A stretch of DNA of 64,000 nt. It comes from Daucus carota subsp. sativus (lineage: Eukaryota; Streptophyta; Magnoliopsida; Apiales; Apiaceae). Location: contig NC_030381.2 in NCBI RefSeq assembly GCF_001625215.2, positions 1,761,131 through 1,825,130 on the forward strand, given 5' to 3'. Numbering within the stretch: the first letter of the stretch is position 1; each line of letters starts with the position of its first letter. The notes under the pieces were generated by a model. That model searched no databases, was not told where the DNA came from, and saw only the letters and a program-made list of their open reading frames with translations. A program made the translations under genes and the position numbers. Of the stretch, positions 1,761 to 50,830 are shown piece after piece.

Positions 1761-3679
1761 TTTCAACAGATATAATGTAAGATAAACACGTAGATTGTCA
1801 AAATATATAAGAATTGGTGTGCAGCAGCAGAACCTAAAATAAAGAGACGTGAGTATACATTCATGTTTCTTCATGAACGCCCTCCATTGAGTACCAAATG
1901 AAAGAACACGGAATGTAGTGTATGGAAAAATATGAAAAACAATCTGAAAGTAATACATACAGCTAAGTTGTAACTGTTGTTTATGATTGATTTTGATTGA
2001 TTTTGATTGATTTTCAATAAATGACAATATATGTAAAATTACACCACTATCCTTATAATTGATTGTACATATTTTATACTGATTGTCATATTATTTTTAA
2101 AGATTTCCTACGTTAATCTTGAGCCATTAAATCCAAATGAATCCAACGGTTAGAATTGGTTCTATGGTTCTATTTTAAGCCTTGGTTCTCTCTAGAGCGC
2201 GCATGTTCTACAGAGAACCACTAACCATAGAACCATAGAACCACAATTTTTTAAAATTAAAAAATATATAATATATTTGTTACATAGTCAAGGGCACTAT
2301 AGACCCAAAATATTTAAGATAAAAATCAGCGCTCAATTTTGATTTGATTGACAACTTTCCAAAATTCACCGGCGCTACTACATCAGCAGCATCGAATCAT
2401 TCTCGAATCATCAAATCTTCAGCATCTTTAAATCAAGCTTCTCTGTAGAAGGTGAGAACAATTTTATACATATATATACATACACTCGTCGATGAACTAA
2501 CGAAACCATTGATTATACTTGCAGTGCACGAAGAACAGTGCAAACGAAGATTGTGCGATAACAACACAATGGATAAGATTAAGATTAGATTTTTTACCAA
2601 AACTTGTTGGTGTTCGATTGAAAGTCTTATCACAAAGCTAAAGTTACGAGTGGGGATATTAAGGTTCACATGCTGAACCTCTGTCTAGAGGAAGTCGTAT
2701 CCACCATGTTTTCAAGTGTGTTGTCGGAGGTGATTAAAAACAATTATCGTGGAATGAGTATTGATGTTGATATGAAAAAGAATGTTGTACAGTAGAGAGC
2801 GTTCGAATTGAATTGTTATTACAAATATAAAATTCCACCATAACTGAAGTGGCACATAAAGCGGCACATAAAATTCCACCTTAACTGAACCGCTACATAA
2901 AGGTTCATATGCAGAACCTCTGTATATGGGAAGTCAAATCCAACAAGATTACAATTTGGTTGTTTGAAATGACTGAGAATAGTTATGGTGGAAGGAGTAT
3001 TTGTGTGAATTGGGGAAAAAGTGGCACAAACACTAAAGTTCATAGTACGAACCTCTATCTATTGGAAGTCAACACCAACAAGTTTTGGTGTTGATATGAA
3101 AAAGAAGGTTGTAATGTAGAGAGCGTTCAATTTGAAGTGTTAGTACAATTCTAAAATTCTGAAGCGGCACATAAAGGTTCATATGCTGAACCTCTGTATA
3201 TAGGAAGTCAAATCCAACAAGATTACAATTTGGTTGTTTGAAATGACTGAGCATACTTATGGTAGGATGAGTATATGTGTGGAATTGGAAAAAAAATGGT
3301 ACAAATATTGAAGTTCATATGCTGAACCTCTGTCTATAAGAAGTCAAATCCACCAAGTTTGCAATTTGGTTGTTCGAAATAACTAAGCATAGTTATGATG
3401 GATTGATTATTTGTGTTCATTGGGAAAAAAGTGGTACATTACAGATCATTTGAATGAAATATCATCACCAAAGTTAAATTTCCGATGCGAAACTTACAAG
3501 TTTCTATTAGCTACTTTTATTAATTTTTGTATCTTCGATCTTGTGAATCATAGATATAGTTGGATGATTATGTTTGGAGATTTTTATTTTATTCTTCATT
3601 ACCTAATCGTGGTACAAGGAGTCATGTTCCTCTTAGAAACCTTGGTCTAGGAACCTTTAAATCTTCAAGTATTAATAAG

Positions 3680-3889
3680 GGTTCTGTAGCAGAACCTTTG
3701 TGTATATTCACTTAAAAAAACGGTTCTGTAGCAGAACTTTTGTGTATATTCACTTTAAAAAAGGGTTCTGTAGCAGAACCTTTGTCTATATTCACTTTAA
3801 AAAAGGGTTCTGTAGCAGAACCTTTGTGTATATTCACTTTAAAAAAAGGGTTCTGTAGCAGAACCTTTGTGTATATTCACTTGAGTTCA
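3680..3889. repeat. Second copy of the five-unit 42-bp palindromic array
   Basis: The 1038-1247 array recurs at an offset of 2642 bp, with the same arm mismatch in unit 2. The shared mismatch shows that the whole unit was duplicated as a block and that the arrays did not expand independently. Confidence 0.9.
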
Positions 3890-3949
3890 TTTTGTAAGAA
3901 TTATAGTACGAGAGGTTATTGTAGTTGAAGGTCCATCAACCGTTAAAAT

Positions 3950-4402
3950 CTAATGCAGAACCTCAAAGTCCTGATGTATAAAAATATAGTTGTCATGTAG
4001 AAAAGTCCCTATATAGTAACCAGTTGGACAATTCTTGAGAATTATCTTAGCCTCACATTCATACTTACGAGTATTAGTCCTTCTACGTTTAATCGTTTTC
4101 CCCTCAAACCTTCCGGCGCTACTACACTCTACATATTTATGTGTCATGACTCCACCTTTGTATTTTGCAGAGCTCTTACGTACAACAAGCCCGCATAGTC
4201 GCCCATATTCAGTATAAAATTCAAATACAGCTTCAACATCTGGAAACATCTGATTAACATATGGCTTGGACTTCTTATCACATTTCGGTATCCAATATTC
4301 TTCTCCGTCAGGTGATGTGTACTTGTACGAATCCACATAAATATCTTCATTGAGCTCATTAGTCTCCCATGGAATGCTGAGTAGCAGATTGTGATCCGTT
4401 AT
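3950..4402 (-). pseudogene. FAR1 DNA-binding domain fragment, copy 2
   Basis: Identical in translation to the fragment at 1308-1760, shifted by 2642 bp. It has the same truncation and stop next to the palindromic repeats, and the same open frame upstream (to 4669). No catalytic transposase domain follows it either. Confidence 0.65.
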
Positions 4403-4843
4403 TTTCAACAGATATAATGTAAGATAAACACGTAGATTGTCAAAATATATAAGAATTGGTGTGCAGCAGCAGAACCTAAAATAAAGAGACGTGAGTATAC
4501 ATTCATGTTTCTTCATGAACGCCCTCCATTGAGTACCAAATGAAAGAACACGGAATGTAGTGTATGGAAAAATATGAAAAACAATCTGAAAGTAATACAT
4601 ACAGCTAAGTTGTAACTGTTGTTTATGATTGATTTTGATTGATTTTGATTGATTTTCAATAAATGACAATATATGTAAAATTACACCACTATCCTTATAA
4701 TTGATTGTACATATTTTATACTGATTGTCATATTATTTTTAAAGATTTCCTACGTTAATCTTGAGCCATTAAATCCAAATGAATCCAACGGTTAGAATTG
4801 GTTCTATGGTTCTATTTTAAGCCTTGGTTCTCTCTAGAGCGCG

Positions 4844-5572
4844 ACCCTATATTATAAAATCTGTAATTGGCAAGTATAAATATATAGATGGACAGGAGTA
4901 AAAGCAAGAAACAAAGTAAAAAGCTAGAAACAGATAGCAATACAGTATGGAAGATGGGGAGAATTATAACATGAGCATTCCGATCACAATGCTAAACTGA
5001 CAAATTGCTGAAAGAATAGAATCAGTGACAAGGATCGAAACTATGTTTCAAAATAATATTTCAAGTTCCTTGGAATAGTTGTAATATTATATAGTTGTAA
5101 TGTACCTTTGCGAGTGCAAGTGAGTTATTATATATTTCAAAGTGTTGTAACTAAAATTATTACTAGTATCTCTAATCTGAAGCATCTAGCATTCATGATA
5201 AGGAGTGAAAAGCAAGTATAATTGAATACTACATTGCTTCTAACTTGTTCCTATATATGATAGATTTCTTTGCACTTTGCAGAGCCGATACACCTTTCTT
5301 TTGAGGCCTAAGTTGCAGTACTTTGACAGTATAGCTACCTTCATCCACACAAAAGGACTCCTCAGAGCCCGGGTGCTCGCGAGTCAGTTTAGGCGGATTA
5401 CATGTATTTAATCAATCCAATCCATGTATTTATATTTTGGGTCGAGTTGGGTTGGATTGGATCGGTACGTTACTGAACATGCACCCGCATGTTGAGTAAA
5501 TTTTACATATACTACAATTGTAAGAAGAGGACCACGAGTCCACCATCTACGAATCCCATTTCCTACTCAATC
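4844..5572. other. Spacer between the tandem repeat and the tubulin gene
   Basis: No convincing gene. A short tract near 4890 (GATGGACAGGAGTAAAAGCA) resembles one near 32694 and may come from the same dispersed repeat. At about 5368-5490 a GGGTGC...GCACCC bracketed stretch with GGTTGGATTGGAT looks like a small degenerate hAT-type MITE. The 3' part is the tubulin promoter. Confidence 0.5.
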
Positions 5573-33621: not shown

Positions 33622-35505
33622 TGATTAGTCCATATTTTTGCATATTTAAGTGCCTATTTTTTGTTTATTTTCGTAGTATTAATCGCTTATTTATTTTATT
33701 TCAGGAAATTGTAGATAAATAAAGAAAGAAGAGAAAATGCAAGAAAAAGAAAAAAAGGGTTGGCAAGTAAAGGACACATGGATGGCCACAATTCTCCCAA
33801 CACTCAAGGCACATGGATGGTCAAGATTGAGCCTCCCTACCCCTAAACCCTAATTCTTTAGTTATAAATACCCCTCTTCTTTTACTTGTAATCACCAACC
33901 TAGTAACCTAGCCACCTACTCTCCTTTTCTACCTAGTGATTTCTATAGTTAGTATCTTAGATAGATTTACATTTTGCTAGCCCCAATTTCCTTTCCAAGT
34001 TTGTACACACTTTTTAATTTCTATGCAAATCTCTTTTATCTTAATCTTGTATTGTCTTTTTAATATATGTTCTCCAAGATTGAATGACTCTTCTAAGTAC
34101 CACCACATGCTTTTAAGCTTTTGGGAAATGAAGAATCATTAAACTTGTGATTAGTGTAGATTTCTTACTTTTTAGATTTAAATTTTGGTAGAAACTTAAA
34201 CTCTAGCACAAAAATGATTTGTGAGGGGGTTAAAAATCTAGATTTAAAGAGCATCATATATTAGTGTTAACTCAAGATTTCGTTTGTTTTTATTATACAA
34301 AATCAGCAGCCACGGAATGATTTGCTCTGTTTCTAAACAACAACCCACCTCCCCTGTTTTCATTAGTTTTTTTTTAATAAATACGAAGTTGTGTGCATCC
34401 CACTGTTCTGATCTTCTTTTACACAAGTTAGGGTCGATTTAGCTAATTGTTTTTGCTGCTTTGTCTCTTGCTTCTCGAGTCATGGCCCTGTTTAGGTTCT
34501 GAATTTCCGAGTTGTGTTGAGTTGGTTATCACCGAGTCTGTCGCTTTCTTTCCTTCTTTTTCACTACTGCGTTTTTCTTGATGATTTCACCGAGTAGGAG
34601 TCGAGTCTGTGTTCACGAGTTTAAGCACCGAGTCAGCCCCGCAGTTGTTAAGTTACCGAGTTGACTCCTGTGTTTTCTGCTGTGCTTGAGTCTGTTCCTA
34701 GTTTATGTTTCTGCTCTTTTTCGTTTTTGAACTGAGTCACCGAGTCTGCCATGTCTGCTTCATTAGTTGGGTTTGGTTTATGTTGCTTAGAATCAGGTCT
34801 TTAGTGTGCTTTGTCTTTAATTTCGTTGCTGTGTTTTGTTGCTGCAGTATAGTCGAGTCATTGGTTCGTTCTGTTGTGAGTTTTGCTTGTTTCCGAGTCC
34901 ACTGTTTTAGCGAGTTTAAGGTGCTGGGTTTGTTTCAAATCGCCGAGTTCTTCTTTTCCTGCTGTTTGCTGTTGCCGAGTCACTTCCTCTGTATTTTGTT
35001 ACCACTTCGTCACTTTCCGATTAACCGAGTCTTTGTCGTAGTTTTCAGTTTTGAGTTTTGATGATTTACTGGGTTAGATGCGGCCACAGTTTTGTTCAAG
35101 TCTACGGCCTGAGTTTACAGAAGTGTGTTTAAGTAATAGTATAATAAGGGCCTGCATTTTTCCTTTTGGTTGTTGCTGAGTGCGATTGACTTTATATGTT
35201 TAACTAGTCAAATTATGCCTGGATTTGTACGCGTTATAACTTCACTGTTCTAAAATGAATCTTGGTTTATAAAAAGCTTGTGTGGATTTGCGGCTGGTTA
35301 CTTAGTTTAATTAATTTCTTTTTAGACTTACATTTTAGATTTCGTTAAAAGAAAAACCTCCCTCACAAATTTATTGTTCTAATTCGCCTAGATTTAAAGT
35401 AAAGGAATTTGCGGAAAATAATTTTAATCTCTGTGGACGAATCATAAATATTAAAACGGTGATCGTGCGCTTGCGATTTTATAAGGTATATTTTCTAGCA
35501 CATCA
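33622..35505 (+). repeat. 5' LTR (1884 bp)
   Basis: Runs from TGATTAGTCC to TAGCACATCA. A TATAAATA box near 33862, followed by leader-like C/T-rich sequence, marks a likely promoter. Between about 34475 and 35035 the motif CGAGT (often ACCGAGTC) recurs more than a dozen times. Confidence 0.93.
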
Positions 35506-35508
35506 AGT

Positions 35509-35532
35509 TTTTGGCGCCGCTGCCGGGGATTA
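35509..35532 (+). other. Primer-binding site
   Basis: TTGGCGCCGCTGCCGGGGA a few bases after the LTR resembles the tRNA-Asp-type primer site used by Athila elements (usual form GGCGCCGTTGCCGGGGA), with one difference. Confidence 0.75.
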
Positions 35533-36472
35533 AAATTTATTTTTCGCTCCTTTATTTTTAATCTTTCGGATTAGCTTGTTTTCTCACTATTTTTTGTTCT
35601 TTATTTCGAGGAGAAAGAGTCGGGATTCATGGAGTAAAGTGAACAAATTTTGCTCGGATTTGGAAGCTTGCTTTGGTATCTCGTATCTCTCCACTTTTTT
35701 CGTCTTTATTTAGAAAATCACAAACAAATTTGAAAATTGAAAAACACAAACAAATTAAAAATTTAAAATCCAAAAATAGTAGTTAGAATTAAATATGTGT
35801 TGCATCATGCATTTTTACACTTAGGGCACATCATTTAGATTTTAATTTTTGTTTTTAAATTTTCGTACCTTAAATTGTGGTGATCGCTGGAGGACCCTAA
35901 GGTGCGTTAATTTCTTCCTTTCTTTAGAGTAAATCACGTAGTGTAGAAGCATCCATATTTGTTTATAGCTTTAATTATCTCGTTGTGTGGTGCATCATTT
36001 TAAATAAATCTTAAGGGCAAAACCCAATCACAAGATAAGGGGAGGGATTTCATCACTCTTTCCTTGGCCCACAACAACTAATTTCAACATTTTGCATTTC
36101 CCTAGCCTTTTAATAAAATTGAATTAGACGTTAGCCCCTAGGTTTCGCGCTCAATTAGGAAGGTACCTAAAGAACGAGGTAATCTTTAATTATTCCGACT
36201 CTTCGGTGTCTAAGGCAAGCGAAAGCTTATCTGGCCGATTAAGGTTTGGTGTCTAAGCGCGGAGATTGGCCTCTTGGCAATGCCTGCTCCAAACTGGCCA
36301 AACCGGTCCGAATAATTTTGGATTTATCGAGTTTTTGGTGGTCCTTAACGTTAGGAGCAAGGTCTAGTTCATTTTTTTTAGGGAACCCTAGATTTAGGTT
36401 TTTCTTTCTCTTTTACACCCTTTCTTTTGTGTGTTTTAATTTTTGCACTTATTTGCTACATGTTTATCGTTT

Positions 36473-39361
36473 ATGCGAACTACTTGGGTTAGGAACGAAG
36501 CATCCAGATTAGTAAGACCTATAATCGAGATTCCCTCGTCCTCTTCGGATTCCGAAACCCTAGAAGTTCTAGAACCGATAGTAAACATGGCCCTTTCACT
36601 CAAGGATCGTTGTTATCCATCTCGTTCAAGTCAACCTTCGTGCATCACCCTTCCTCCCGTAAATGGGAACAATTTTGAAATTAAAGCTCATCATATTAGC
36701 ATGTTACCTAAATTTACCGGGAGTGAGGGTGAGGATCCTTATCTTTTTATTCAAGAGTTCGAGGAAGTTTGTTCCCTCCAAAAGCTCCACCAATTAACGG
36801 AAGATTCGATTAGACTTAGGCTCATTAATTTTGCGCTTAAGGAGAATGCGAAAAAATGGTTATATAGTCTTCCCGTTAATTCTATTTCCACGTGGGAGGG
36901 GTTTGTGGTGGTTTTTCTTAAAAAGTATTTTCCAAATCATAAGACTACTCGAATTACAAATGAAATAAATCAATTTCATCAAAAGGAAAATGAGTCTTTT
37001 TGGATTTTCTTTGACCGCTTCAAAAATCTTCTCTCACAATGCCCCCACCACGGAATAGAAAAATGGAGACTTTGCAAGATAGTTTACGAGGCCTTAGATA
37101 GTCAAACCACCGCGTTATTAGAGTCTATGTGCCAAGGTAAATTCATGGAAAAAGATGAGGATCAAGGGTGGGAATTTTTCGAGGATTTAGCGGAAAAGAC
37201 TATGATGTGGGAGTCAACTAGGGAGCCCAAAAAGTCAATTCAGTCATCTAGCGCTAGGGGCTTGCATTCGATAGGAAATAATGTGGCAACCGATGCCAAA
37301 CTAGCCACCCTAACTAGGAGACTTGAAGCTTTAGAAACTAGTAAATCTCCCCCACAAATGTCGATGCTCCCTAATTACAATTTTCAAAATCCCGGAACCC
37401 AACCTTCGCACGAACTTGAACAAGTAAATGCGATGTTTCAAAATCCTAGGAATGATGCGTTTGCACCCACTTATAATCCCGGGTGGAGAAATCACCCAAA
37501 TTTCTCATGGACCCAAGGTCAAATTTTTCAAAATCAAGGCCCAACTTCTTTTCAAACTCCTCAAACAAATTTTCAAAGGCCCAACCCAAATTCTTACCCA
37601 AATCAAGGTCCAAATTCATGTCATAACCCAATTCAAACTCCTTTGAATCCTCCCGGTTTCAATGATTCGGATAAACGCCTCAATTCCTTAGAAAAAAGTT
37701 TGGAAGCCTTAGTGAAATCGCAAACTAATTTGACCCAATCTCAACAAACTTTCATGACAACCCTAACCCAAGATAGGCAAATCTTGCATTCTAATGTGCA
37801 AGCCGTGTCTAAGTTAGAGGCCCAATTGAGTCAATTAGCTAGCGCGTTGTGTGAGCGAGAAAAGAACAAGTTGCCAAGTCAACCCGAGGTCAATCCTAAG
37901 TTTCCTCTCAATCAAAGACCTCACGAGAATGTTAATGCGATTATTTCTCTAAGGTCGGGAAACCAAGTGGATAACAAAGTTGGTGAGAACGTGAATAAAA
38001 ATGAGGAGTCGATTCCTGAACCAAATCCTTCTTTGTCGAATCCTATCCCGGATAAGCCCGAATGTTCTAGAGTCCGTGAGTCTATGAATGAACCTAGTTC
38101 CGGGTCCATTTCTCAAAAGCCCAACGAAGAAGTTTATAAGCCGAGGGTTCCTTACCCACAAAGACTCATTCCTCCTAAACAATCGGCCCAAATGGAACAA
38201 ATTCTAGAGGTTTTTAAACAAGTCAAGATTAACATTCCTCTTTTAGATGCCATTCAACAAGTTCCTTCTTATGCCAAGTGTCTAAAAGATTTGTGTACCC
38301 ATAAGAGAACCACTCATGTTCCAAAGAAAGCCTTTTTGACCTCGCAAGTAAGCTCGATTCTCTCGAATCAAATTCCCGTGAAATATAAGGACCCCGGTTG
38401 TCCTACAATTTCTTGTGTCATAGGCAACACTTTTGTGGATAAAGCTTTACTTGATTTAGGAGCGAGTGTGAATCTTCTTCCTTTCTCGGTCTATCAAGCC
38501 CTAGGATTAGGGGATCTCAAGACCACCAATATGACCCTTCAACTTGCCGATCGTTCCATTAAAATGCCAAAGGGGATTATTGAGGACGTGTTGATAAAAA
38601 TCGGTGACTTTATCTTTCCCGTTGACTTTGTTGTTCTCGAGACTCAACCCGTCTCGAATCCTAAGAACCAAATTCCTATCATTTTAGGACGACCTTTTCT
38701 TGCTACATCCAATGCCTTAATCAATTGTAGGAATGGTTCAATGAAACTCACCTTTGGAAACATGACCATTGACTTAAACATTTTCAACATAGGAAAAGAA
38801 CCCAATGAGCTTTATGAACAACCGATAGGGGTTAATGTGGTCAACAAGTTTGTCACATGGTCCAGTTTTGAGGATAGTGAGATTGAGTCTCTTCTCAACG
38901 AGGATTTCAAAGTCAACAACGAGAACAATAGGGAATATCATGAGTCGTTGAAAGAGTTGACCTCGGAGGAGTTGTTAGGAGAATTGAACGACATTTGTTC
39001 AAAATGGGAAACTCCGCCCGAGATTGTTCGTGTTGACCCTAGGCCCAATTTTGAGAGTTATGTAGGTGAATCACCGACATTTGACTCGTTGTCCCATCAT
39101 TCGCATAGTGCCTTAGGAAGAGATGACACTGTTTCTTACATCATTCCTAGTGATTTATCCCTCGACCAAAATTTAATTGTCTCTAATTTGCTTGATAATA
39201 AAGAAGCATTAAGTTGGTTTAGGGAGAACATTAGTGATACTTGTCCAACAGGAGTGAATGATGGTCACATGCTAGAGAAAGTCTTTGTGCCTAAAAATTT
39301 TCGTACACATTTTGACTCTTTCTCGAAGCTTCCTCCCATATTTCCTTCCGGAATCGGCTGA
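36473..39361 (+). CDS. Retrotransposon gag-protease polyprotein (Athila-like)
   Basis: A 962-residue frame; I chose the ATG at 36473 because the upstream extension to 36443 has no ATG. The gag domain lies around residues 75-240 (LFIQEFEEVC, then WEGFVVVFLKKYFP and NESFWIFFDRFKNLL), typical of PF03732. A long Asn/Gln/Pro-rich linker (about 290-400) follows. The aspartic protease lies near residues 640-790 with LLDLGASVNLLPFSVYQALG; the active-site motif reads DLGAS where DSGAS/DTGAS is usual. ILGRPFLATSNALIN follows. No CCHC zinc knuckle is visible. The frame ends at TGA 39359-39361 with no reverse transcriptase after it. It would form particles and self-process if the protease works; polymerase must be supplied in trans. 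Confidence 0.88.
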   Translation: MRTTWVRNEASRLVRPIIEIPSSSSDSETLEVLEPIVNMALSLKDRCYPSRSSQPSCITLPPVNGNNFEIKAHHISMLPKFTGSEGEDPYLFIQEFEEVCSLQKLHQLTEDSIRLRLINFALKENAKKWLYSLPVNSISTWEGFVVVFLKKYFPNHKTTRITNEINQFHQKENESFWIFFDRFKNLLSQCPHHGIEKWRLCKIVYEALDSQTTALLESMCQGKFMEKDEDQGWEFFEDLAEKTMMWESTREPKKSIQSSSARGLHSIGNNVATDAKLATLTRRLEALETSKSPPQMSMLPNYNFQNPGTQPSHELEQVNAMFQNPRNDAFAPTYNPGWRNHPNFSWTQGQIFQNQGPTSFQTPQTNFQRPNPNSYPNQGPNSCHNPIQTPLNPPGFNDSDKRLNSLEKSLEALVKSQTNLTQSQQTFMTTLTQDRQILHSNVQAVSKLEAQLSQLASALCEREKNKLPSQPEVNPKFPLNQRPHENVNAIISLRSGNQVDNKVGENVNKNEESIPEPNPSLSNPIPDKPECSRVRESMNEPSSGSISQKPNEEVYKPRVPYPQRLIPPKQSAQMEQILEVFKQVKINIPLLDAIQQVPSYAKCLKDLCTHKRTTHVPKKAFLTSQVSSILSNQIPVKYKDPGCPTISCVIGNTFVDKALLDLGASVNLLPFSVYQALGLGDLKTTNMTLQLADRSIKMPKGIIEDVLIKIGDFIFPVDFVVLETQPVSNPKNQIPIILGRPFLATSNALINCRNGSMKLTFGNMTIDLNIFNIGKEPNELYEQPIGVNVVNKFVTWSSFEDSEIESLLNEDFKVNNENNREYHESLKELTSEELLGELNDICSKWETPPEIVRVDPRPNFESYVGESPTFDSLSHHSHSALGRDDTVSYIIPSDLSLDQNLIVSNLLDNKEALSWFRENISDTCPTGVNDGHMLEKVFVPKNFRTHFDSFSKLPPIFPSGIG

Positions 39362-40729
39362 AGTGGTTCCTCCTTCGAACCTTCCCTCGTGAAATTCAGG
39401 TATGGGGAAGGAAATGTGTGAGTGTGTGGGTCTTGTTAGTGTTTCGTTCGTTAATAAAAATCCCCTTCATATCCATTTCAGGTATTTTTCTCTTTACTCT
39501 CTCATTTCAATTTTCTGTTTTGCATACATTGAGGACAATGCATGATTTAGGTATGGGGAGGGCTTTAGTGTAATTCTAAAAAATTAAAAACCCTAAAAAA
39601 ATGAAAAATTAGAAAAATCCAAAAATAGAGATACTTTTAGCTAAGTTGTCCTTCCCTCACTCGAACTTTAGGAGTAGTTGGTGTTTAGCATGTTTTCGAA
39701 AAGTACATATATGTAGTGTCTTTTAGATAATTTGAACGTAGTTGAGTAAGGTTGTCTTTTTGAAGCTTGTATCGACCGATTTGTACTTTAAATTCCAAGA
39801 TGGCACACACTTTTGCACGAGACCTTTGATGGAGAGATTGTCTAGTAATATTATTCGATACCTGAGAGAGAACCCACATGTTGAAACAATGTCGAATCGA
39901 ACCTTTGCGAATAAAAAAAAAAGAAGAAAGAAATAGAAAAAAAAAAGAAAAAAAAAAGAAGAGAAGGAATAACTACTTCAATACCCATTGTTCTTTATAG
40001 ATAAAATCTTTAGATAAATGGGCAAAAGTAGATTGACTAGTCTCGTTTTGTGGCCTTTGTTACTCGAGCAATTAAGTTCGTAGGGGGATTTCAAAACCTA
40101 GTGCCCTAAGACCGTTTGGTTTGGGAGTCACTGACCCAAAGCTCGCTACATGGGTAACATTGTTTGCCTAAGAAAACGGACAAAATTAAGTCGATGCAAA
40201 AAAAAGAAAAAAAAAGAAAAAAGAGAAGAATAAGAATTTGTGAAGTTGGGCTAGATATTTGTTTCGATAGAGATTGGGTTAGTTCAAAATTGGTTGAAAA
40301 AGAGAAAATGTTATTAGACGATTAGGATCCATCAAAGGCCTTAAATTACTTACACTCCTTGGATTTCTAGTAAATTTTTGTGTCGAGTCAAGTAGATTAG
40401 AGACAACTGTATCTTGATTATTAGTAGATGAGTCTTTAAGTCGTATTTTCCTTAAAAACGCTTTTTGTTAACACCGACGAAATTAGGGTAGAGTCGAGTA
40501 GACACTTGCTAGAATGTCTCGAAGATTTTATGGGTATATCTTCTGTAAACCCTTAGGAGACAAAACTCCTCTTGTAGAGATCGTCTACGAGTTTAACGGG
40601 TTGGTGAACCTAAAATCACCCGTCACGCCTACGAAAAGGAGCCTAGGAATCGCATCTAGTTTTCTTAGTTTATTTTCTTTTCTTTTGATTTTTACTCGAG
40701 GACGAGCAAAAGATAGGTATGGGGAAGTT
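39362..40729 (+). other. Non-coding 3' region of the LTR element with repeated PPT-like boxes
   Basis: Non-coding. GGTATGGGGA(A/G) occurs near 39401, 39552 and 40717, the last being the functional-looking purine tract beside the 3' LTR. A-rich stretches (39910-39965, 40195-40235) lie between. The first two boxes look like remnants of earlier element ends. Confidence 0.65.
40712..40729 (+). other. Polypurine tract
   Basis: GATAGGTATGGGGAAGTT immediately precedes the TG of the 3' LTR; this is the expected plus-strand primer position. Confidence 0.75.
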
Positions 40730-42613
40730 TGATTAGTCCATATTTTTGCATATTTAAGTGCCTATTTTTTGTTTATTTTCGTAGTATTAATCGCTTATTT
40801 ATTTTATTTCAGGAAATTGTAGATAAATAAAGAAAGAAGAGAAAATGCAAGAAAAAGAAAAAAAGGGTTGGCAAGTAAAGGACACATGGATGGCCACAAT
40901 TCTCCCAACACTCAAGGCACATGGATGGTCAAGATTGAGCCTCCCTACCCCTAAACCCTAATTCTTTAGTTATAAATACCCCTCTTCTTTTACTTGTAAT
41001 CACCAACCTAGTAACCTAGCCACCTACTCTCCTTTTCTACCTAGTGATTTCTATAGTTAGTATCTTAGATAGATTTACATTTTGCTAGCCCCAATTTCCT
41101 TTCCAAGTTTGTACACACTTTTTAATTTCTATGCAAATCTCTTTTATCTTAATCTTGTATTGTCTTTTTAATATATGTTCTCCAAGATTGAATGACTCTT
41201 CTAAGTACCACCACATGCTTTTAAGCTTTTGGGAAATGAAGAATCATTAAACTTGTGATTAGTGTAGATTTCTTACTTTTTAGATTTAAATTTTGGTAGA
41301 AACTTAAACTCTAGCACAAAAATGATTTGTGAGGGGGTTAAAAATCTAGATTTAAAGAGCATCATATATTAGTGTTAACTCAAGATTTCGTTTGTTTTTA
41401 TTATACAAAATCAGCAGCCACGGAATGATTTGCTCTGTTTCTAAACAACAACCCACCTCCCCTGTTTTCATTAGTTTTTTTTTAATAAATACGAAGTTGT
41501 GTGCATCCCACTGTTCTGATCTTCTTTTACACAAGTTAGGGTCGATTTAGCTAATTGTTTTTGCTGCTTTGTCTCTTGCTTCTCGAGTCATGGCCCTGTT
41601 TAGGTTCTGAATTTCCGAGTTGTGTTGAGTTGGTTATCACCGAGTCTGTCGCTTTCTTTCCTTCTTTTTCACTACTGCGTTTTTCTTGATGATTTCACCG
41701 AGTAGGAGTCGAGTCTGTGTTCACGAGTTTAAGCACCGAGTCAGCCCCGCAGTTGTTAAGTTACCGAGTTGACTCCTGTGTTTTCTGCTGTGCTTGAGTC
41801 TGTTCCTAGTTTATGTTTCTGCTCTTTTTCGTTTTTGAACTGAGTCACCGAGTCTGCCATGTCTGCTTCATTAGTTGGGTTTGGTTTATGTTGCTTAGAA
41901 TCAGGTCTTTAGTGTGCTTTGTCTTTAATTTCGTTGCTGTGTTTTGTTGCTGCAGTATAGTCGAGTCATTGGTTCGTTCTGTTGTGAGTTTTGCTTGTTT
42001 CCGAGTCCACTGTTTTAGCGAGTTTAAGGTGCTGGGTTTGTTTCAAATCGCCGAGTTCTTCTTTTCCTGCTGTTTGCTGTTGCCGAGTCACTTCCTCTGT
42101 ATTTTGTTACCACTTCGTCACTTTCCGATTAACCGAGTCTTTGTCGTAGTTTTCAGTTTTGAGTTTTGATGATTTACTGGGTTAGATGCGGCCACAGTTT
42201 TGTTCAAGTCTACGGCCTGAGTTTACAGAAGTGTGTTTAAGTAATAGTATAATAAGGGCCTGCATTTTTCCTTTTGGTTGTTGCTGAGTGCGATTGACTT
42301 TATATGTTTAACTAGTCAAATTATGCCTGGATTTGTACGCGTTATAACTTCACTGTTCTAAAATGAATCTTGGTTTATAAAAAGCTTGTGTGGATTTGCG
42401 GCTGGTTACTTAGTTTAATTAATTTCTTTTTAGACTTACATTTTAGATTTCGTTAAAAGAAAAACCTCCCTCACAAATTTATTGTTCTAATTCGCCTAGA
42501 TTTAAAGTAAAGGAATTTGCGGAAAATAATTTTAATCTCTGTGGACGAATCATAAATATTAAAACGGTGATCGTGCGCTTGCGATTTTATAAGGTATATT
42601 TTCTAGCACATCA
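40730..42613 (+). repeat. 3' LTR (1884 bp)
   Basis: Matches 33622-35505 at offset 7108 from end to end and is followed by the GTAAC target duplication. Confidence 0.93.
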
Positions 42614-43948: not shown

Positions 43949-45340
43949 GAGCATCTCCAATGGGAGGTGCCAAGAGGAGTGCCAATACCATGTGGCATGA
44001 CATGGACCGGCACTCTCGTTGGCACCCCATTGGAGATGTTGGAGTGCTACTGGGTGCTAAAAGTTGGCAACCTATAAAGTAGTGTGTCAACTTCATTTGT
44101 GGTCCCAATAATACATAAAATATAGATTTGTGATCCCAATAATACATAAAATATTATTTATCTTTTAATAAAGTTGGCATCTTGGAGTGCCAACCATTGG
44201 AGTGTATTTTGAAATAAGGATGCTAAAAATGATTTGAAAGAGTCAATATACTTATATAAAGGAGAAGCGTGGGGCGTGTAGGTGGCGTCTCTCACATCGC
44301 TCTGTTCTATTTTTCTAATTTTCTGAAATTTTTGGATGAAAAATATCAAAAATTAGAACTACTTTTTTGGTTTCGGGTATATTAGAAGTAAGTTTCAGAA
44401 TATGATTTTGTATCAGATTATTTATGGAATATAGTAGCTTAAAAGTTTTAATATGATTTTGTTTCAGATTATTTAATTATGGGAAAGAGTAGCACACAAG
44501 TCTCTCTGATTTTGTATCAGATTATTTATGGAATATAATAACTTGAAAGTTTTAATTTTAATTTATATAAAGGAGAAGCGAGGGCGTGTAAGTGGCGCTT
44601 CTCACATCGCTCTGTTCTATTTTTCTAATTTTCTGGAATTTTTGGATGAAAAATATCAAAAATTAGAACTACCTTTTTTAGTTTCGTGTATATTAGAAGC
44701 AAGTTTCAGAATATGATTTTGTATCAGATTATTTATGGAATATATATAGTAGCTTAAAAGTTTTAATATGATTTTGTTTCAGATTATTTAATTATGGGAA
44801 AGAGTAGCACACAAGTCTCTCTGATTTTGTATCAGATTATTTATGGAAGATAATAGCTTGAAAGTTTTAATATGATTTTGTTTCAGATTAGTTAATTATG
44901 GGAAAGAGTAGCATACAAGTCTCTCTGCACCTATAAATACCTTTGTAGATTGTAGGATTTTGGATCATCTAAACACAATTTCCTCTCCCTTGATATGAGT
45001 CGACATATCCAAACACGGGAAAAGAATACAGTCTTGACATGATATTGATGGATGATATAGATGTATGTTTGTTGGTTATTCTTTTATAATATTTGTTTTG
45101 TTCATCGGACATGTTTGTTGTTGTTAATTTTTATATGATTCATTTTGTATATAGGAAAAAATTATTCATGCATTATCTGTTTGTTTTTATTCTACAAATA
45201 TTAATATTGAATCATTAATATAATTTTTATAGGCCGCCGCAACGCGCGGTTTCTCAACTAGTGTGAATATAAAATATAATATTTTGAGTTATGTGTCAAA
45301 ATTGGCACCCCTTGAAGGGCGTCAACCATTAGAGATGCTC
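43949..45340. mobile_element. Harbinger-type MITE carrying a nested Helitron
   Basis: Ends GAGCATCTCCAATGGG and ...CCATTAGAGATGCTC form inverted repeats, flanked by the TTA target duplication (43946-43948 and 45341-45343). The 1392-bp span is unusually long because a Helitron lies inside (about 44252-45262). Without it the MITE is about 380 bp. It is the same family type as 11785-12148. Confidence 0.8.
44252..45262 (+). mobile_element. Non-autonomous Helitron
   Basis: The 3' end reads GCCGCCGCAACGCGCGG, then TTCTCAA and CTAGT. This short GC-rich hairpin followed by CTRR-T is typical of plant Helitrons. The 5' end TTATATAAAGGAGAAGCG is AT-rich and Helitron-like, though the exact 5' TC is unclear. 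The first ~310 bp are tandemly repeated (second copy from 44563), and a shorter internal block (GGGAAAGAGTAGCA.ACAAG) occurs three times. No Rep/helicase is present. Confidence 0.75.
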
Positions 45341-46230: not shown

Positions 46231-46261
46231 ACAAGACTGCTTTGCTCATTCCTTGCAAAGA

Positions 46262-46828
46262 ATGATGAAACATATTTACTTTTGTCTAATCCAGTTCCTA
46301 GTGTTCTATAATTTGTCATTTATTAGTGTTGAAGCTCAAGAATGCCAGTCAAGTGGGACAATTGCAGGGACAAGCCCTCCAAATGGCCAATGCAACACAG
46401 CCTATGGAGCCGCATGCTGCGAACAAGACAAGATTTATGACATTTTCACATGTTCTCCACCTCTTTCGGGAGCTACAACCGCGACTCTAACCTTGAACAG
46501 TTTTGAGGATAATGGAGATGGCGGCGCGCCATCTGAGTGTGATCAGAAGTACCATTCGAATGAGACTCCTGTAGTGGCTCTGTCGACTGGATGGTTTAAC
46601 AACATGAGTAGATGTAACAAGAACATTGTTATTTACGGTAATGGAATGAGTGTGACAGCAGTGGTGGTTGATGAATGTGATTCGACTACGGGGTGTGATC
46701 AAGATCATGCTTATCAGCCCCCTTGTGATGATAATATTGTTGATGCTTCTGAAGCTGTTTGGACTGCTTTAGGTGTTCCGAGGAGCGAATGGGGATCAAT
46801 GCAGATCTCATGGTCCGATGATGCTTGA
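46262..46828 (+). CDS. Kiwellin / ripening-related secreted protein
   Basis: A single exon of 188 residues. The start is ATG 46262 (a second ATG follows directly); the open frame extends to 46253 but has no ATG there. The N-terminus is a clear signal peptide (hydrophobic to about residue 25, ending VEAQ). The mature part has ten cysteines, including the CC pair in GAACCEQDKIY, and the conserved stretches STGWFNN, NGMSVTAVVVDECDSTTGCD and VWTALGVPRSEWG. These identify the kiwellin/ripening-related family, apoplastic proteins with a double-psi beta-barrel; some members bind and inhibit fungal chorismate mutases in defence. The gene converges on the F-box gene downstream. It looks complete. Barwin/PR-4 is related in fold but differs in these motifs. 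Confidence 0.88.
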   Translation: MMKHIYFCLIQFLVFYNLSFISVEAQECQSSGTIAGTSPPNGQCNTAYGAACCEQDKIYDIFTCSPPLSGATTATLTLNSFEDNGDGGAPSECDQKYHSNETPVVALSTGWFNNMSRCNKNIVIYGNGMSVTAVVVDECDSTTGCDQDHAYQPPCDDNIVDASEAVWTALGVPRSEWGSMQISWSDDA

Positions 46829-47128
46829 TATTCTTCAATTTCCCCCCATTGCATTCTATTATGTATAACTATCTCCAGTTGCTGAACATTAGCAAAACTC
46901 GGGAATTGACTATTAAAAGAGTAGTGCTAGGTGCACAAAATTGTGTACAAATAATTTTCATAAGACACGGCCAAATGCAAAATAAGCTCCATTCAACTGA
47001 AATATTATGGCTATAAAATAAATAGAGGTAAACAAGATTATTAATATTCGAAAGACATGCATGAGATAGTGCTTCAAGTTCAGAGGTTTTGTTGAATCTA
47101 GAATATGAAAAAACTTGAATTCAATCAA
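46829..47128. other. Convergent spacer (kiwellin / F-box)
   Basis: 3' untranslated regions of two convergent genes, including the copied F-box exon fragment at 46869-46914. Confidence 0.6.
46869..46914 (-). repeat. Copied fragment of F-box exon 2
   Basis: CTATCTCCAGTTGCTGAACA through GGGAATTGACTAT matches 47721-47765 in exon 2 of the F-box gene, same orientation, with two to three mismatches in about 45 bp. Confidence 0.75.
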
Positions 47129-49251
47129 TCATAAAATCACCACATCCAGAGGAAATTGCCTCCTTTGAATCCGTTTTGCAAGAAGCTCTGTTTTCTTCGC
47201 AATTGCCACTTTATCCCTATAATCATAGGCCGTGTCTCTGCATAAGCTTTCTATAGAGTGGGGCCTACGAGTATCAAAGATAAACCTCTGAAGCATGGGG
47301 GCATGCCTAGCAAGACAAACTGCAAGCTCGGCAGCAGATGCACAACCCTCATATCCAAGGTACTCTACAACCTTAAGGTGCTGATGGCAACGTATTGCAT
47401 TCTCTTGAGCATAGTCTGGAGCTGAAATTTGCCTTGTCGATTCTAGCTCGTAGCTACACATCATCTGAATACCAGCATAAATTCGTGTCAATACTGGATG
47501 GCATAGCAGTTACAAAAAGAAATCGAATGATTTGGACAAGTTAAAAAAGTAAAACATAAAAATTGATGTCTGTCCTCCATGCCAGAGAAAAAACAAGGTA
47601 CTGTATAGAATTTATGACAACAAAAGATGCATCTGACCTTTAACTTGAATGTATGCAACAAAGGACACGCTTCTATCAAGGAGGTCGCTAGAATGAGGTC
47701 ACCGTGCCCCAATTTGGATATTATCTCCAATTGCTGAACATTAGCAAAATTCGGGAATTGACTATATACGGTGTGTTCCTACAAAATGAAAATGGATCAA
47801 AAGCATTGATGCTGAGCACAGAAACAAGTATAGCAGTACTCTGGTCTAAGTAACATAAATTATCGCTTAATTGAACAATTAGCAAGACATAACATAATAG
47901 AAAGCAGTGAACTAACCATGTGCCACCAAATTGACAGCTTTTGAAGCTGGAAAGAGAAACTAGATATGGAGTCTTGATTCTTGAAAAGGTGATGACAATA
48001 TAACCATCCAAAAGTAGCATCCACAAGTGATGGAACACTACGATACTCCACTTCATATTTAGATTCGTAAATTATAAATGAAGTAAGATTTGGAGCAGAT
48101 AAACAGAGCACTTGAATGTTAAGTGACTTTAAGCTGTGATAAAACTCCAAGTGCCTCAGCTGAGGGGATGAGACAACAAGTCTTCGGTGGTGCATAGAAG
48201 ATGCAGTGTCATCATCAGAGCTGGCCTTACAGCGGTGAAACAACAGATGCTGAAGATTAATACAGTTAGTTAACACCCATTGAAGGAAAGGTCCTTTTAG
48301 AGTCACTGATTTCAAGTGAAGAGATGTGAGTGTAGTATTGAGAATCAAGGCAGGATCCGTAGAAAAGATGTTGGAAAAATGGATAGGTGGATAACACATA
48401 TCTAGAAAGTCCAGGTCCAAATTGCAAACTTGTTTATCAAATGCAAATTTGAGCCAACTCTGAATATGAGCAGAATAAAAACTATTAAGCGGAAACTTTA
48501 TTCTAAAGGCATCAAGATATGGAGCTCGATTTGCAATTATAACCCTGTTAACCCTTTCAACAAATTTGTCCATTTTAGATTGCGGATACCATGTATAATT
48601 CAGAAGAGTTTCAGGCTCGCCAAAATCTAGATGCTTAAGGTAAGTCCAAAGACGTGTCCACCTCTTAGAGAGAAGGCATGTTCTCCCCACACTTTTCATA
48701 TCAGCAACCAAAGAAAGAATGCACACGAGCAACTCATCAGGTAAATTGCTTATTAAATCAACACCCCCTTGATAATTCTCATCGAGGTCAACGTGAATGA
48801 ACCTTCTCTTTCTCTTATTTTCGGAGCTGGAATATTGTTCACACATATCACGGAGAAATTCCCAGGCATTGATGGCACTAATAGTCCCACGCGTTTCAGT
48901 GACCAGCCTTACAAGTAAATAAGGGGAGATTGTGGCATAAATCCATGAAAGAACAATGGCCTCTTGTCGACGCCAAAGAGTAGTGCTATGATCAATATTA
49001 TTAATGATAGCGGGATCAATATGATGAAGAAGATTATGAGCCCTAGCAGCGTCGCGAAAAACAGCAGACCATTGAGTATACTGGACATTGTAAAGATCAA
49101 GAACAACATTTATTAACTTCTTGATGTACATGAATTTGATAGGCACAAAACTCATATCATATTTATTTTCGAGCCTTGGTGCACATAATTCATCTCGTAT
49201 GTTTTCGATGGAGCACACATTTGGGATCTTCATCTTCCTCTTCCTCTTCAT
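47129..49251 (-). CDS. FBD-type F-box/LRR protein with copia gag-like N-terminus
   Basis: Three exons on the minus strand (49251-47917, 47778-47638, 47464-47129) join in phase to 603 residues. The F-box at about 165-210 (LISNLPDELLVCILSLVADM, then TCLLSKRWTRLW) should bind SKP1 in an SCF ubiquitin ligase. Leucine-rich stretches (about 270-450) and a C-terminal FBD region (HQHLKVVEYLGYEG, then LARHAPMLQRFIFDTR) should bind the substrate. Unusually, residues about 35-145 read like the gag domain of copia retroelements: VQYTQWSAVFRDAARAHNLL, HIDP, WRRQEAIVLSWIYATISPYL, then INAWEFLRDM. Normal FBD F-box proteins begin with the F-box. The fusion is within one uninterrupted exon with a good ATG (49249-49251). 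A downstream start near the F-box is possible. The substrate is unknown. Confidence 0.82.
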
Positions 49252-49263
49252 GTGTATATTAGG

Positions 49264-49471
49264 TACTCCTCTGTCCCATTTTAACTGATGTAAAAAGACA
49301 ATGTCTACCCTTAATAAAAAAATTCAATTCTTATATCAAATAAAAGTTTAGATTCTAAACTTTTATTTGATATAAATTTTATAAAGAATAATTATATATA
49401 GATTTGATTTTTTTAACACTTTAAAATACGTGTAAAAAAATCAAAAGCAGTTAACATGGACGGAAGGAGTA
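49264..49471. mobile_element. Stowaway-like MITE, 208 bp
   Basis: TACTCCTCTGTCCCATTTTA at the left and ...CATGGACGGAAGGAGTA at the right are inverted repeats of the TACTCCCTCCGTCCC type. It lies immediately upstream of the F-box start codon, so it may form part of that promoter or leader. Confidence 0.75.
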
Positions 49472-50309: not shown

Positions 50310-50830
50310 GAGTAAAGTGCATTTTGTGTACCTGCACTTTAAGCGAGACACCACCTGCAATACTACACTTCCACAACCATCACATGCAATATCACAGTCC
50401 ATAATTTAATACAATTTCGGCAGGCCCGTCTATAAAACTTAATGTCGTTAACACATAAAGAGATATTTGTATAATTTCACCTCTGTAAGCTCTTTTGTGT
50501 TTCTTTTTGTCATTAAACGAAACTGCAACCCTCACAAATCATTCTACAGCCTCACGCAACCTTAACTTTCTAGCTAGCATATGAGACAACTGGGAGAAAA
50601 TTAGGATGGTTTGAGGCTGTTGAATGATTTGGGAGGATTGCAGCTTCGTTAAATAGCAAAAAGAAGCACAAAAGAGCCATTACAAAGTGAAATTATACAA
50701 ATACCCTTTTATTTGTTAACAGCATTAAGATTTATAGACGGGATGTGATATTGCATATGGTGGTTTTAGAAGTGTAGTATTACAAGTGGTGTCTCGCTTA
50801 AAGTGCAGGTACACACAATGCATTTTACTC
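50310..50830. mobile_element. Foldback element, 521 bp with long inverted arms
   Basis: Arms of roughly 254 bp (50310-50563) and 225 bp (50606-50830) are inverted copies of each other, from GAGTAAA(G/A)TGCATT through ACCTGCACTTTAAGCGAGAC to CAGCCTCA, around a loop of about 40 bp with CTAGCTAGC. It has no coding capacity. A transcript would form a very long hairpin. Confidence 0.85.

Follow-up and report, generated by a model that had tools for sequence, protein, structure and literature searches.

The window analysed here (64,000 nucleotides, C1:1761131-1825130 of the carrot assembly) carries on its minus strand a gene, referred to below as W, with three exons at 49251-47917, 47778-47638 and 47464-47129 and a predicted product of 603 amino acids. 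Its splice sites were picked by eye and by homology, and the coordinates, strand and length given for it in the preliminary description were correct. Exon 1 (47917..49251) consists of 445 open codons leading to a GT donor and encodes, in order, an N-terminal extension, a gag-like segment, a basic linker, an F-box and an LRR-like part. The copia-type gag segment, recognised by a search of the carrot genome, alignments and shared residues, covers residues about 43-137 (48841..49125); the preliminary description had placed it at residues 35-145, which was right as to its presence and slightly too wide as to its extent, since the homologous core ends near residue 137 as judged by eye in the alignment with copia gags. 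A linker with the basic run KRKRR (48784..48840) joins the gag segment to the F-box at residues 167-205 (48637..48753), which is followed by an LRR-like stretch at residues 307-398 (48058..48333). Exon 2 (47638..47778) was also found in nine paralogues, as was exon 3 (47129..47464), which encodes an FBD-like C-terminal part and the stop codon.

Pfam searches supported the host part of this protein in part. The F-box region taken alone scored above the cut-off for PF12937 (25.2 bits, cut-off 24.3) and PF00646 (20.8 bits, cut-off 20.5), and within the whole exon-1 protein it fell just under both (22.4 and 19.8 bits, respectively). The LRR-like stretch reached 23.2 bits for PF24758 (cut-off 27), the other LRR models likewise staying below cut-off, and the C-terminal end reached 19.9 bits for PF08387 (cut-off 22). 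Of the F-box and FBD matches expected from the preliminary description, the F-box was thus recovered in the isolated region and the FBD was approached below its cut-off.

No pair of repeats longer than 150 bp flanks W within the window, and no pol frame adjoins it, the only other frame of at least 120 codons beside W being a kiwellin-like gene (46253-46828; PF24300, E 5.8e-58) arranged tail to tail with it. By flanking repeats of more than 150 bp and frames of at least 120 codons, W is not part of an element. Downstream of its stop codon lies an isolated 44-bp copy, 95% identical, of part of exon 2 (46870..46913, minus strand), which may be filler DNA or what is left of a tandem copy. A MITE-like element (49264..49471; 24-nt terminal inverted repeats, 75% complementary), which we take to be Stowaway-like, ends 12 bp upstream of the first ATG of W (49251) and may supply its 5' UTR or disturb its expression. 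Further upstream, at 50310-50830, an inverted-repeat pair with 87-nt arms (91% complementary) and a nested 56-nt pair is probably another MITE. A comparison of the region upstream of W with those of seven of the nine paralogues gave short matches only, the longest being 103 bp at 69%, and no shared promoter.

Three further features were observed elsewhere in the window. An exact (100%) tandem duplication of 2,201 bp (1-2201 and 2643-4843), either very recent or an assembly artefact, contains a frame with a weak FAR1 match at 1308-2027 and 3950-4669 (24.5 bits, cut-off 28.1). A Ty3-type element at 33622-42613 is bounded by two terminal repeats of 1,884 bp with 100% identity (33622-35505 and 40730-42613) and contains a 972-codon gag-protease frame (36443-39361) with no further frame of at least 120 codons, and it therefore looks like a recent non-autonomous insertion. 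At 44252-44871, a unit of about 310 bp is present in two tandem copies that are 95% identical.

Copia gag relatives and a ten-gene family

The assembly containing W (441,086,747 bases in 11 contigs) was searched in translation with W residues 1-160. Matches were found at 47 places, 24 of them at E ≤ 1e-3: 14 in ten genes that share the fusion, one in a decayed member of the same family, and nine in copia-type gags outside the family. The best copia match, at C7:13076429, lies in a frame of 1,437 codons and covers W residues 29-159 with 39% identity (E 3.6e-17), which bears out the earlier proposal of a copia gag in frame with an F-box/FBD-like gene. Two of the nine copia-type gags were scanned with Pfam: the gag piece of the C7:13076429 frame scored 72.7 bits for PF14223 (cut-off 27) and a 300-residue piece at C1:18019352 scored 74.7 bits. 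Pol-side domains were scanned in the C7:13076429 frame alone, where the next piece contained Pol_BBD and gag_pre-integrs above cut-off and rve at 29.7 bits (cut-off 32.6), an order of domains that we take to be that of copia elements. The nine copia-type gags are 36-42% identical to the segment of W, and among the copia-type frames with related gags in this genome three are open over 678 to 1,437 codons. Twenty-four core positions carry the same residue in fusion segments and copia gags alike, by thresholds of at least 80% (12 fusion segments) and at least three of four (copia gags, a fifth, short one being omitted); they include W61, F65, A69, R70, W103-Y105, T107-S109, L112, L113, W130 and L133.

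The Pfam check that the preliminary description had put forward for the gag-like region of W came back empty, since no family was found at E ≤ 1 or E ≤ 10, either for the whole region or for any cut tried. When the gag segments of the ten genes were searched in isolation at E ≤ 1, three of the ten weakly reached PF14223 (best E 5.8e-4), that of W not being among them, and of six paralogous exon-1 proteins scanned one, A5, gave a PF14223 match below cut-off (18.3 bits, profile positions 9-97 of 172). Of the PF14223 region, the fusion segment thus appears to keep the first half or so, and no zinc knuckle was reported in the parts of W and its paralogues scanned with Pfam, so that a complete Gag is absent. 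Eight PF14223 loci (L026-L033) gave no match to the gag segment of W (best E 2.3), indicating that PF14223 alone takes in gags too distant from it. A PDB search with the gag segment of W gave no match up to E 10, and a profile of ten segments gave one weak, irrelevant match (E 0.36). The AlphaFold model made without an alignment was all-helical, with a mean pLDDT of 40, and is too poor to use; it proves nothing.

Outside the genome, no relative was found in viral contigs by peptide-pattern scans, in bacterial and archaeal genome contigs by a DNA pattern and peptide patterns, or in plasmids and phages by tblastn. A looser DNA pattern picked out 25 stretches in viral contigs, which were rejected as not gag on the basis of tblastn (best E 0.77) and their translations.

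The combination of gag, F-box and FBD exons is present in ten carrot genes: W; five genes, A1-A5, at C1:3.29-3.33 Mb; three genes, B1-B3, at C1:55.597, 55.608 and 55.813 Mb; and gene C at C3:60.958 Mb. All ten have gag and F-box in an open exon 1, a GT donor at the same position at its end, and exons 2 and 3. Four of them carry two gag segments, which in B1-B3 are read together with the F-box in one frame of 580 codons. In gene C the first segment occupies a separate frame of 170 codons, and only the second shares the exon-1 frame with the F-box (461 codons). Between the two segments of gene C lies a stretch that is not open in one frame (L073 4744-4996) and that may be an insertion or an intron; the 9-mer CAGGGCCGG occurs at 4744 and, in the same orientation, at 4988, and the motif GGTAAGA at 4759. 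An eleventh locus, C9:43789246, where remnants of gag and LRR persist, contains a stop, gives no F-box match and is a decayed member of the family. Because ten genes have the same architecture, chance resemblance and the random juxtaposition of a copia relic were ruled out.

A search with the F-box/LRR part alone, in which 136 of 165 candidates were scored so that the counts are lower bounds, returned at least 82 rows. Eleven of these, ranked first, were the same ten genes (A1 giving two rows), whose main rows scored 235-657 bits, against at most 114.6 bits for the 71 further rows. The latter comprised three fragments on C9 (114.6, 103.2 and 63.3 bits) and at least 68 other places at 49.3 bits or less, which were taken as other F-box genes. 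The positions of these 71 rows were set against 43 of the 47 gag-like rows (all but four second rows for B and C), and among the matches listed none had a gag-like one within 199 kb. Since the closest F-box relatives coincide with the ten fusion genes, the most economical history would be a single capture of the gag segment, then gene duplication and retention.

A tree was built from 12 fusion segments and five copia gags, without the two segments of B2, which are near copies; in it, a long branch with 100% support separated the copia gags from the fusion segments. The segments of B and C grouped by their position, first with first (95%) and second with second (100%), from which it follows that the doubling is older than the split between B and C. 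Synonymous distances between W and five of the other genes were 0.66-0.95 for the gag codons and 0.48-0.59 for the F-box/LRR codons. At usual plant rates, such distances correspond to tens of millions of years.

Selection on the gag segment and the start of translation

Codon models were fitted to eight of the ten genes (W, A1-A5, B1 and C; B2 and B3 are near copies of B1) over 124 gag and 280 F-box/LRR codons. Omega was 0.339 for the gag codons (lnL -1719.44 versus -1744.17 at omega 1) and 0.526 for the F-box/LRR codons (lnL -3114.68 versus -3130.34), estimates that gene conversion could bias, the F-box/LRR codons of A4 and A5 being identical, as would result from such conversion or from a recent duplication. 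When the branch leading to W was given a separate omega, using a custom script, it was 0.244 for gag (lnL -1719.07 versus -1722.94, p 0.005) and 0.549 for F-box/LRR (lnL -3114.61 versus -3117.05, p 0.03). A counting method was less clear for the gag codons on this branch, giving omega values of 0.35, 0.42, 0.62 and 0.63 with four reference pairs, for which 19, 53, 210 and 177 of 1000 bootstraps, respectively, were at or above 1. In a substitution-only neutral simulation, codons 8-135 of W (the 128 before Met136) stayed open in 5.3% of cases at 0.3 substitutions per site and in 2.4% at 0.47; at 0.05, 0.1 and 0.2 substitutions per site the same frame stayed open in 50%, 27% and 11%, and there the open frame says little.

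The codon models ruled out an unconstrained relic. The borrowed gag part looks as if it has been kept by natural selection, which makes it a promising candidate for a domesticated virus-like component that serves the plant. The earlier view of the fusion as a coding unit was strengthened by the ten genes, by their forming one group of closest F-box relatives and by the purifying selection on the gag segment.

Ordinary F-box proteins have their start close to the F-box, and translation of the fusion genes could likewise begin just before it, at Met136 in W, leaving the gag segment as an untranslated relic. Between Met136, where the gag core of W comes to an end, and the F-box there is no further methionine, and in A4, A5, B1-B3 and C a methionine lies between the gag segment and the F-box. 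An internal start is therefore possible in seven of the ten genes, but its position is not conserved across the family, and in A1-A3 the methionine nearest to the F-box on its N-terminal side sits inside the gag segment. Moreover, the N-terminal extension of W aligns with those of A1-A5 from near their first methionines on, the frames are open through gag in the family, and the gag codons are under purifying selection. Together these make a start after the gag segment unlikely, and the segment is probably translated; we regard the untranslated relic as very improbable. It is also conceivable that the family is real and W itself a silent or dying gene: W is a lone copy away from the clusters, the MITE-like element adjoins its ATG, and the locus at C9:43789246 shows that a relative has decayed. 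Against this, its three exons and their splice sites are intact and the omega of its own branch is below 1 for both gag and F-box/LRR, so that silence or decay of W seems quite unlikely.

Possible roles of the captured segment

An F-box/LRR/FBD body points to a substrate adaptor of an SCF ubiquitin ligase, a role established for that protein family, and a gag part of the kind kept here mediates capsid contacts. The reading that we consider probable is that the ten genes encode a family of SCF adaptors in which a copia capsid segment, gained in frame once by their ancestor, has been co-opted to bind protein. Under this model, the common ancestor of ten F-box/LRR/FBD-type genes would have acquired the N-terminal part of a Ty1/copia Gag in front of its F-box, and the segment would later have doubled in one branch. 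The fusion would be made as one protein whose F-box binds Skp1, making it an SCF substrate adaptor, and the gag-derived segment would be an added protein-binding module that binds a Gag-like partner or self-associates. A protein-binding role in general is the mechanism to which we commit, as one predicted from sequence comparison. Within this reading, the Gag of related copia elements is the preferred target, and a tentative one.

Several more specific or competing roles were weighed against the same evidence. The gag segment could act only as an oligomerisation module that clusters the SCF adaptor on itself, with no relation to retroelements. Capsid domains tend to self-associate, and the gag segment is present twice in four of the ten genes (in gene C in separate frames). 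According to the part of the source available, a fragment of Ty1 Gag dimerises (PMC8458377), but that fragment is another part of Gag than the approximately first half of the PF14223 region kept here, and self-clustering as the sole role is possible, though less likely than not. The module could instead insert into or bind copia Gag assemblies, the F-box then bringing the ubiquitin ligase. Such SCF-based restriction would be comparable in principle to capsid-derived restriction factors, copia-type frames with related gags, the three long open ones described above among them, being present in the same genome. It has a precedent in yeast, where DRT2, a Ty1' gag that has been domesticated, acts to restrict Ty1' (PMC10951436, from the portion available). 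However, DRT2 and p22 come from the C-terminal part of Gag, as far as the available portions of the sources describe them, whereas the fusion keeps the N-terminal part, and the identity to the nine copia-type gags is low (36-42%); we hold this role to be somewhat unlikely. Much the same can be said of exaptation for a new function, in which the segment would bind an unrelated host or pathogen protein, or the basic linker would direct localisation. In W and A1-A5 the gag segment is followed by a basic run, of which B1 has a similar version, and gag-type domains occur as integrated domains in NLRs in the accessible part of one paper (PMC4759884), but the 24 core positions still shared with copia gags speak against such a change of function. 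Retrotransposon surveillance is one of several possible readings of the fusion.

The founding survey of co-opted gags, and the source for the HadGAG genes, is reportedly that of Wang and Han 2021. Reports of gag co-option through fusion in plants are recent, and the function is called unclear, as stated in the available part of a later paper, which lists HadGAG1 (PF14223 with a USP7 domain), HadGAG2/Ctrg10 (copia gag with KELP/PC4) and HadGAG3 (a PF03732 gag with NTF2) (PMC9784723). As described there, these genes resemble W in joining a gag segment to a host protein in a multi-exon gene. They differ in that the carrot partner is an F-box/LRR/FBD-type protein whose F-box shares one exon with gag, and in that the carrot genes form a family of ten, four members of which have two gag segments, with no zinc knuckle reported in the parts scanned. 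W has the order of F-box, LRR-like and FBD-like parts seen in F-box/FBD/LRR proteins (PF00646, PF24758, PF08387), to which it adds an N-terminal gag segment, its LRR and FBD scores being below cut-off. Yeast DRT2 and the Ty1 products p22/p18 are comparable in that they, too, are parts of a Ty1-type Gag, either domesticated or produced from an internal start. Their origin is the C-terminal Gag/capsid part, no ubiquitin-ligase module is named for them in the portions of the sources available, and their function, according to the same portions, has been tested, whereas that of the carrot fusion is predicted from sequence. Gag-type (UBN2/copia) domains also occur in plant NLR models (PMC4759884, PMC8832786; parts of both sources), again a gag-type domain joined to a plant protein. 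There the partner is an NLR, and the accessible parts of these sources give lists of domains, without a family of the carrot type or evidence of selection. Plant gag fusions are thus already known; a gag-F-box family was not found among the literature matches listed (titles and starts of abstracts), a scope outside which the survey of Wang and Han 2021 lies.

What the carrot genes add is an apparent single capture that gave rise to ten genes for a predicted ubiquitin-ligase adaptor; selection appears to have maintained them, and one branch has acquired a second gag segment. Together with HadGAG1, as far as the available part of its description goes, the fusion would be a second link of copia gag to the ubiquitin system. 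It also makes testable, in a crop, the question of whether a capsid-bearing ubiquitin ligase acts on retrotransposon Gag. In the boldest form of this idea, which we think unlikely, plant SCF ligases would carry a domesticated copia capsid as bait, doubled in one branch, with which they would recognise the Gag of living copia elements and send it to the proteasome. If true, this would be a ubiquitin-based restriction of plant retrotransposons made from the enemy's own capsid.
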